Below, piece after piece: positions 44,817 to 52,950 of a stretch of 64,000 bases of DNA (the stretch's first letter is position 1; each line of letters begins with the position of its first letter). The translations under genes were made by a program, and so were the position numbers. The DNA comes from an uncultured cyanobacterium (lineage in GTDB: Bacteria > Cyanobacteriota > Cyanobacteriia > Thermostichales > Thermostichaceae), in assembly GCA_937944885.1 (NCBI GenBank), contig CALFBB010000010.1, positions 1 through 64,000 on the forward strand, in the 5' to 3' direction. The notes beneath the pieces are model-generated. The model was not told where the DNA came from and searched no databases. It saw only the letters and a program-made list of their open reading frames with translations.

Positions 44817-45231
44817 GTCCTCACTCTGTGGGGATCCCTATAAGTTGGAAACCGAGATCTTGATCCGATTCCAACAGAGCCTGTTTAAGTCCTCACTCTG
44901 TGGGGATCCCTATAAGTTGGAAACCCCCTCTTGGTTGGGCGGAATCAGCCACCGTGTTATGTCCCCACTCTGTGGGGATCCTATAAATTGGAAACTTAAG
45001 GAACTGCTCAACCACCCGCGGCCAGAGACGCGGGTCCCCACTCTATGGGGATCTCTATAAGTCTCTATAAGTTGGAAACAAGAGAAAGCAGGAGCAGAAA
45101 GGGTGAAGTGAGAAATAGACGTCCCCACTCTGTGGGGATTTCTATAAATTGGAAACCTTTCTCTGCCAACAGACTGTGCGAACACAGTCTCGGAAGTCCC
45201 CAATCTTTGGGGATCCCTATAAATTGGAAAA
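44817..45231 (+). CRISPR. Small degenerate CRISPR array: 6 repeats, 5 spacers (36, 36, 38, 41, 39 nt)
   Basis: Repeat GTCCCCACTCTGTGGGGATCCCTATAAATTGGAAAC (36 nt). Units at 44817-44852, 44889-44924, 44961-44995, 45034-45079 (10-nt internal duplication), 45121-45156, 45196-45231; unique spacers. Confidence 0.88.
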
Positions 45232-45253
45232 AAATTGGAAAGAAGAAATAGAA

Positions 45254-45327
45254 TCGGAGCGAAAGGATTTGAACCTTCGACCCCCACTACCCCAAAGTGG
45301 TGCGCTACCAAGCTGCGCTACGCCCCG
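45254..45327 (-). tRNA. tRNA-Pro(GGG)
   Basis: Minus strand CGGGGCGTAGCGCAGCTTGGTAGCGCACCACTTTGGGGTAGTGGGGGTCGAAGGTTCAAATCCTTTCGCTCCGA; acceptor, D, anticodon (CCACT-TTGGGGT-AGTGG) and T arms all fold. Confidence 0.93.
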
Positions 45328-50788: not shown

Positions 50789-52060
50789 CTAGGTGGAGCG
50801 CAGTTGCACCGGCATAACCAAGTAACACAAGCGCATTGCTCCAATCGGCCTCCAAATGGCAGGTTGTACCGCACCGTTGAGATCCAAGCTCACCTGCTGA
50901 GTGTGAAATACCTTGAGAGCATCGAGTAAATAACGCACGTTAAAAGCCAGCTCCAGATCCGGTCCCGACATTTGGATCGGCAGAGACTCTTGGCCACTCC
51001 CCACATCGGGAGCTTCGGTGCTGATCTGAAGGGTCTGGGCTGCTGCAGAAAGCTGGAACTTGACGATATCATTCTTCTGAGCAGCAAACACGCCCACCCG
51101 CTCTAGCGACTCTATCAAGGGCCGACGCTCTAGGGTCACTTGTCGCTCAAATTGGGTGGGAATCAGGCGTCTATAATCAGGATATTGCCCCTCCAAGAGC
51201 CGGCTGATGATTAAATGACGTTCGAGGCTAAACTGCACCTGGGACCGGTCAAAGCGCAGCTGCACGGTCTCGGCCACTTGGTTGCTGAGAATCCGCTCCA
51301 ACTCTCGCAAAGTACGGGCGGGAACCGTGAATTCTAAGCCCCGTCCCGGAAACTCACTCAGACTTTCATCTCCAGCGCGGAGCATCATCAGCTCAGTCTG
51401 CACCGTAGCCAAACGATGCCCATCCGTAGCCGCAAACTCCAACAATGGGGGATCCCCCGGTAAGAGTTTGACGTGTACCCCTGTCAGCACCTGCTTGGTG
51501 TCATCCCCAGAGGCAGCAAAGAGGGTTTGGCTAATCCCCTGCAACAGGCTCTCAATGTTCAGCTCCAAAGTTTGTGCTGCTCCATCCCCAGCACCTACCT
51601 CAGGAAAGGTAGGGTAGTCCTCAGCAGACAATCCCCGTACCTGGTACTGACCAACTGTCGAAATCAAGGTCACGGGAGCATCCTCTCGTGGCTGACTCAG
51701 GGTAACCTTGCCCCCGGGCAGGCGGCTGACAATGTCGCCAAGTAGCCTGGCCGGTAGGGTGGTACGGCCGGTGACCTCCACCTGAGCATCAAACTCACTG
51801 CGGATACCCAAGCTTAGGTCAAAGGCAGTTAGGGCCACTCGTTGCCTGTCTGCATCCGCTTCCAGCAGCACATTGGCCAAAACCGGCATGGACGGACGAC
51901 TGGCCACAGCCCGACCCACCAATCCCAGGTGCTGACTGAGATCCGCTTGCTCACAGGTCAGGTTCAAAGAGAAAGAGCGGGCGGAATCCCCTCCCGAACC
52001 TGCACCAAAGCGGCTCTGAGACACATCAGCGTTGTCTGTCAGGCTTTGGGCTTGCACCAT
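50789..52060 (-). CDS. dnaN: DNA polymerase III beta sliding clamp
   Basis: LSQHLGLVGRAVASRPSMPVLANVLLEADADRQRVALTAFDLSLGIR...LNGAVQPAIWRPIG...LCYLVMPVQLRS. Confidence 0.96.
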   Translation of the reverse strand: MVQAQSLTDNADVSQSRFGAGSGGDSARSFSLNLTCEQADLSQHLGLVGRAVASRPSMPVLANVLLEADADRQRVALTAFDLSLGIRSEFDAQVEVTGRTTLPARLLGDIVSRLPGGKVTLSQPREDAPVTLISTVGQYQVRGLSAEDYPTFPEVGAGDGAAQTLELNIESLLQGISQTLFAASGDDTKQVLTGVHVKLLPGDPPLLEFAATDGHRLATVQTELMMLRAGDESLSEFPGRGLEFTVPARTLRELERILSNQVAETVQLRFDRSQVQFSLERHLIISRLLEGQYPDYRRLIPTQFERQVTLERRPLIESLERVGVFAAQKNDIVKFQLSAAAQTLQISTEAPDVGSGQESLPIQMSGPDLELAFNVRYLLDALKVFHTQQVSLDLNGAVQPAIWRPIGAMRLCYLVMPVQLRST

Positions 52061-52194
52061 GACGAGCACTTGAGGACTGAATATGCACATCCTACACCGA
52101 TCGGCCCGCTTCGGATCCCTAACCCTGGCAGTAACTTCAATCGCGCGTGAGAAGTTTAAAATCTCGATCCCTACTCTATCTAAAAATTTTGATC

Positions 52195-52558
52195 TAGTAG
52201 TAGTAGGGGCTGTGGAAACTGTGGAAAGTGATCCTCAACACCTTGTGCCACAAGCTTTTGACCTTATTCCCCACCTGTGGAAAAAATGTGGAAAACTAGC
52301 CTAGTTTTCCACAGAGTATTTATACCTGTTAATAACTTAGGGGGTTTTTCCACAGGTTTTCCACAGGTTTTTGGGGTTTTTCCACAGGTTTTCCACAGGT
52401 TTTTGGGGTGGAAATGTTGCTATTTCCTGACAAATTCACAAAACTTAACACACAATCAGTGTTAGATCCCCTAACCTGGTGAATCCTCCCTCTAGATGTG
52501 GTCAGAGATTTCATCGTGGTTTGGGCGAGCCACGATGGATTTCCACAGGTTTTCCACA
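52195..52558. other. Replication origin (oriC) candidate: DnaA-box cluster plus DnaA-trio
   Basis: Perfect TTTTCCACA (either strand) at 52276-, 52287-, 52305+, 52346+, 52357+, 52378+, 52389+, 52550+; one-mismatch copies at 52211-, 52220-, 52539+; TAGTAGTAGTAG at 52195-52206; located between dnaA and dnaN. Confidence 0.88.
52346..52409 (+). repeat. Two tandem 32-bp units, each with a DnaA-box pair
   Basis: TTTTCCACAGGTTTTCCACAGGTTTTTGGGGT repeated twice. Confidence 0.9.
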
Positions 52559-52950
52559 GGCTGTGAAAGAAAGTTTCGCAGTGGTGTTTTTCTTTGCTGG
52601 GTTAGCAATAGTCATTCGCGCAGGAGGGGAACATGGATGGGTTGGTCCTGGCATTGCTTAGCTTTAGAGGGGGAGTAGACTGCCGGTAGGGCAAGCAGGG
52701 ATGCTAGAGCGATGGTAGGTTGTCTGCCTTGATCTGTCCCTTGCGACAGCGGTGGGTATCACCATGGCTGCAGGGTTCGAGATGGTGTAGCACCAACTAA
52801 CTCGGTCTACTCAAGCAGGTCTGCGGTGGGGTGCACTGTGGAGGTTCAACTCAAATGCTTCTATCAAATGCTTCTAGAGAGGTTCTGGTGAGGAGTGGAA
52901 TTGCTCACTCCAGCCGAGGCGCTGTGAACAGAGAACCTCTTGCTATCTGC

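Follow-up and report, generated by a model that had tools for sequence, protein, structure and literature searches.

The closest described systems include the basal unwinding system (BUS) of the B. subtilis chromosome origin, oriC, with DnaA-boxes 6 and 7 and the adjoining trios (PMC6669920, PMC10721633). DnaA on the tandem boxes delivers an oligomer to the trios, where an essential asparagine contacts the central adenine (PMC10721633). In the published view the BUS is widespread, and the commonest spacing between box and trio is 13 bp (PMC8287927). In vitro, S. elongatus DnaA can melt the BUS of its own origin, and this opening depends on both box and trios (PMC8287927); the oriC of this species lies near dnaN (PMC7198777). 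Cyanobacterial oriCs have also been predicted by Ori-Finder/DoriC (PMC4674748) and carry TTTTCCACA boxes adjoining dnaN like the locus described here. The comparison in that paper covers boxes and adjacent genes; trios and a fixed spacing of the boxes are features noted here.

Layout of the module between dnaA and dnaN

We analysed a 64-kb stretch of DNA (the window) in which dnaA and dnaN, both called by curated profiles, are separated by a gap of 860 bp. The original prediction placed two abutting DnaA boxes, a GC cluster, four trios and an AT-rich stretch on the minus strand of this gap. We found exactly this string: from 52228 down to 52178 the minus strand reads CTTTCCACA GTTTCCACA GCCC CTACTACTACTA GATCAAAATTTTTAGAT, letter for letter. 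The predicted distance of about 135 bp to the dnaN start was recovered as well: counted from the ATG at 52060, the trios start at 135 bp, and counted from an alternative ATG at 52090, at 105 bp. Table 1 lists the features of the region.

Table 1. Features of the dnaA-dnaN region, in coordinates of the window
Feature	Position	Strand	Basis
dnaN (DNA polymerase III beta clamp)	50789..52060	-	TIGR00663, 312.9 bits
AT-rich predicted unwinding tract	52163..52194	.	nearest-neighbour stability profile
Four CTA units, i.e. four 3'-GAT-5' DnaA-trios on the plus strand; predicted single-strand DnaA track	52195..52206	-	sequence
GC spacer GCCC, 4 bp, proximal box to trios	52207..52210	-	sequence
Proximal BUS DnaA box GTTTCCACA, 1 mismatch to TTTTCCACA	52211..52219	-	
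Distal BUS DnaA box CTTTCCACA, 1 mismatch to TTTTCCACA	52220..52228	-	
Two perfect TTTTCCACA boxes, oriented as the BUS boxes	52276-52284, 52287-52295	-	
Perfect box facing the 52276-52295 pair	52305..52313	+	
Two identical 32-bp units with two perfect boxes each (52346, 52357, 52378, 52389)	52341..52404	+	
Outermost box pair ATTTCCACA, TTTTCCACA	52539..52558	+	
dnaA	52951..54375	-	TIGR00362, 525.3 bits

Neither BUS box is perfect, and the perfect boxes lie further upstream. Each BUS box differs from the E. coli box TTATCCACA at two positions, the most that is allowed for the one or more DnaA boxes of a BUS. Tandem boxes should be co-oriented with a gap of at most 3 bp, and here they abut on the same strand. 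A spacer of about 4 bp should lead to the trios, at 10-13 bp from the best box; we observed the 4-bp GCCC, with the distal box 13 bp from the first trio, as in the commonest published spacing. The strand complementary to the box motif should carry at least three 3'-NAN-5' trios, preferably GAT, and it carries four, all of them GAT. The location is that of a chromosome origin, namely a dnaA-dnaN intergenic region carrying eight perfect TTTTCCACA boxes. We also compared the window's DnaA with 8btg, the DnaA chain of the B. subtilis DnaA-BUS cryo-EM structure. In this alignment the trio-contacting asparagine N204, I207 and the arginine finger R281 correspond to B. subtilis N187, I190 and R264, so that the residues for oligomerisation and trio capture are in place. 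The 30-bp stretch from 52175, which comprises part of the trios and of the AT-rich tract, belongs to the least stable 0.01% of the window, which independently points to an unwinding element. On either strand of the 64 kb, (CTA)4 is the sole run of three or more CTA units, and the pattern TTTCCACA-N0-16-(CTA)3 occurs at one place in the whole 2.82-Mb genome (reversed control: 0).

Arrangement, orientation, spacing, unstable flank, class-wide conservation and origin-like placement all support the proposed reading, and the module at 52178-52228 is very probably the BUS of the chromosome origin. It is an ordinary, well-formed member of a kind that is already known, the S. elongatus BUS having been assayed in vitro in 2021. 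With the B. subtilis BUS it shares the two co-oriented boxes, the short spacer, the opposite-strand trios with a central adenine, the AT-rich flank and the three equivalent residues in DnaA. Unlike the B. subtilis BUS it has four uninterrupted GAT trios and a far denser upstream array of perfect boxes at fixed spacing, and both of its boxes are off-consensus, whereas box 6 of B. subtilis is the consensus and highest-affinity site. The BUS of genome G038 (2,696,255 bp, which we take to be the size of S. elongatus PCC 6301) reads ttttccacattttccacagccc/CTACTACTACTG; there, unlike here, both boxes match the consensus perfectly, dnaA does not adjoin the module and CTG stands in the place of the fourth trio. 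With the S. elongatus BUS (PMC8287927) the module agrees in the order of its elements, in the length of the spacer and in lying upstream of dnaN.

By analogy with B. subtilis and S. elongatus we propose the following order of binding, base capture, strand opening and helicase loading at 52178-52228. Two DnaA molecules would bind the tandem boxes 52211-52228 via domain IV, and the oligomer nucleated there would extend across the GC spacer and capture the trios of the plus strand, with one subunit per trinucleotide. This capture would cause the duplex to melt at the trios and then into the AT-rich tract (∼52163-52205), toward dnaN, and replicative helicases would then be loaded on the opened strands. 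For this cyanobacterial genus the module thus offers a prediction of the melting site at base level, and replication in the window's organism would depend on it.

The DnaA-box array and its conservation

The richest 500-bp bin contained 11 boxes (at most one mismatch), compared to 0.77 for the average 500 bp of the window. The innermost facing pair, 52287-52295 and 52305-52313, forms a 12-bp perfect inverted repeat (52287-52313), and 52341-52404 is a perfect tandem duplication of a 32-bp two-box unit inside oriC. For the 44 oriCs that could be aligned on their trios we counted boxes with at most one mismatch by their offset from the trios. On the same strand we observed boxes at 4 bp in 40/44, at 12-13 bp in 43/44, at 65-69 bp in 42/44 and at 76-80 bp in 41/44. 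On the opposite strand the counts were 37/44 at 94-98 bp, 38/44 at 167-171 bp and 25/44 at 188-192 bp, and six control offset bins gave 0, 0, 0, 0, 0 and 2 in the same oriCs. This class-wide fixed geometry of the box array around the module is new here, and we found no description of a fixed array in the literature searched. The fixed spacing suggests a phased assembly of DnaA behind the BUS, and the perfect boxes at 52276-52558, standing at these distances, most likely load and organise DnaA.

Box, spacer and trios together are the best-conserved block of the dnaA-dnaN intergenic region. The four trios are identical in 9/9 aligned members of the order and the block TTCCACAGTTTCCACAGCC-CTACTACTACTA is nearly invariant in genus and order, while the flanking sequence diverges; the 4-bp spacer length is maintained in most of the class. 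The octamer TGTAGGAT just upstream of dnaN (L054-L062 compared with window 52063-52130) is also conserved in most of the order and is possibly a dnaN promoter element.

For 60 class genomes we inspected the dnaN-upstream DNA and the surroundings of dnaA and detected a clear module, defined as a box, a short spacer and at least three trios, in 54 of them. It was usually present in a single copy, and the reversed control was near zero. Among the remaining six, G020 has a partial module and G030, G041, G044, G054 and G059 are without canonical trios. Of 391 evenly drawn class genomes, 165 carried the strict module, mostly as one copy, with almost no matches for the reversed control; the four strict-pattern matches of G171 resemble a repeated element and were ignored. 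We had also tried a very relaxed class-wide pattern, which was too noisy, partly because of coding 20-mer matches, and used the strict pattern and direct inspection upstream of dnaN instead. The recurrent non-origin match TCCCCAACCTCTACTACTAC was discarded as it lies inside an open frame, presumably that of magnesium-chelatase subunit H. At L172 (G027:C1:69340) a coding 20-mer, apparently of the magnesium-chelatase H gene, mimics box plus trio in several cyanobacteria and yields false BUS matches in naive scans.

Outside the class, a scan of ∼85,000 prokaryote species with TTTCCACA-N4-CTACTACTAC returned at least 120 loci, including Streptomyces, Clostridia, Acidobacteria and Selenomonas, which is consistent with the wide distribution published for this system (PMC8287927). 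Among the matches listed, 110/120 adjoin dnaA and/or dnaN, and origins as far apart as those of cyanobacteria, Streptomyces and Clostridia are marked by one module of ∼35 bp. The Streptomyces sites (many loci, L179-L298) share the extended motif ttatccac[c/g]gTTTCCACAGGCCCTACTACTAC and, in the same count, usually have no perfect TTWTNCACA box within 400 bp.

The position of the module changes as would be expected of an origin. It is flanked by dnaA and dnaN in the window's genome and in G002; in the congeners G001 and G004 (complete) and G003 and G005 (draft) dnaA is elsewhere, and the module and the box array remain at dnaN. The form is also retained in G013 and G026, where the module stands beside dnaA, and in G037 and G050, where it stands beside neither gene. 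DNA homology to the congeners with relocated dnaA stops at 52563-52577, just beyond the box pair 52539-52558. As the break lies outside the outermost boxes, ∼400 bp (52160-52577) were spared by the rearrangement, and this segment would be a natural estimate of the minimal origin, with an outer limit at ∼52.57 kb that is new here. The draft congener G005 carries two near-identical dnaN copies, on contigs C76 (L056) and C100 (L055), which could reflect a strain mixture, an assembly duplication or a real duplication.

GC skew and alternative readings

GC skew had been named in the original prediction as a means of locating the origin. Across the 64-kb window it gave no signal. In the complete congener G001 (40 samples of 20 kb) neither the module nor dnaA nor any other position showed skew (best p = 0.54), and the coding-strand bias was irregular. 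The switch of skew at the origin that is expected for a DnaA-oriC is therefore absent from this congener, which stands in for the window's draft genome. The same check works in G038 (twenty 20-kb samples), where the best skew origin is at 1.618 Mb compared to 1.621 Mb for the module (p = 0.0002 at the module). Because the complete congener chromosome shows no skew, the test is unusable in this genus and neither supports nor refutes the predicted position; absent skew does not exclude the use of DnaA-oriC. Irregular skew occurs commonly among cyanobacteria and in some of them goes along with replication independent of DnaA (PMC7198777), and for this reason our confidence stays below certainty. 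Since G001 is without skew, like the DnaA-independent cyanobacteria, DnaA dependence in the genus is something we infer. Two properties that are often equated, a conserved opening machinery and GC skew, come apart here.

The region might alternatively be a DnaA-bound regulatory or titration region for dnaN transcription, with replication starting elsewhere or without DnaA. The complete congener without skew, the several cyanobacteria that replicate without DnaA (PMC7198777) and the lineages with boxes beside dnaN and no canonical trios would all fit such a role. However, regulation requires boxes but has no need of strictly conserved GAT trios next to the window's least stable DNA, and in G013, G026, G037 and G050 the module lies away from dnaN with its form unchanged. 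We therefore consider a purely regulatory region unlikely.

If the region is an oriC, melting could still begin at a second AT-rich stretch, 52310-52345, between the facing boxes. That stretch is nearly as unstable as the trio flank and is conserved within the genus, and the box at 52305 satisfies the permissive published BUS rule (a box with at most two mismatches, at most 16 bp, then three NAN). Yet it contains no CTA trio and degrades beyond the genus. The trio block, in contrast, is retained throughout the class and in other phyla, and we regard a start of melting there as very improbable. The permissive rule has 25 matches in the window and is passed by 32% of randomised intergenic regions, hence we dropped it as evidence. 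The same pass rate, and the fact that short repeats do occur, would also be compatible with a chance trinucleotide repeat beside DnaA boxes. Against this, only 0.0025 (CTA)4 runs are expected per 64 kb of first-order Markov sequence, and 0/300 randomised intergenic regions contained a box with at least three CTA trios. Chance had already been refuted by the class-wide conservation, and we assign it a negligible probability.

Possible staged loss of the module within Cyanobacteria

No DnaA match was found in 17/391 class genomes. The strict module is present in 0/12 of those that are at least 99% complete (12/17), and for the 11 of these 12 in which dnaN could be located neither tandem boxes nor (CTA)3 occur in the DNA inspected upstream of it, up to 1.5 kb (0/11). 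Sixteen further genomes, from the module-poor families f24, f28, f32, f34 and f35, bear dnaA and have no canonical trios. Tandem boxes and the array are retained in four of them (G030, G116, G136, G283) and some boxes in two (G099, G271), and the other 10 have none. Boxes are likewise present and canonical trios absent in G041, G054 and G059. In G116 and G136 the trio-less flank is T-rich, and the permissive NAN rule would accept it; therefore 'lost' refers here to the canonical GAT trios, and functional loss would be a further step.

These are present-day, undated states and their counts are confounded by relatedness, but they fit a loss in the order trios, boxes, dnaA. The comparison covered ∼90 oriC regions. 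The staged decay in some cyanobacteria, with trios, then boxes, then dnaA absent, is new here. It is conceivable, though we lean somewhat against it, that cyanobacterial DnaA-oriC initiation decays in this fixed order in general and that the stage can be read upstream of dnaN, from an intact module through boxes with no canonical trios and a lack of boxes to the absence of dnaA. In that case the trio module would predict the species that remain dependent on DnaA, and the window's genus would keep a DnaA-dependent origin despite the lost GC skew of its chromosome. It is in cyanobacteria that DnaA-independent replication is documented, and such stages would make the use or loss of DnaA-oriC predictable species by species. 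As a marker, the stepwise loss of the module would also be useful for spotting lineages in which DnaA may have been abandoned.

Elsewhere in the window we encountered a small, partly degenerate CRISPR-type array at 44817-45232, with six 37-nt repeats GTCCTCACTCTGTGGGGATCCCTATAAGTTGGAAACC that are ∼72-87 bp apart. Visual inspection of the adjacent open frames revealed no cas gene. The array gave two Rfam CRISPR-DR58 matches and adjoins a tRNA at 45254-45327.
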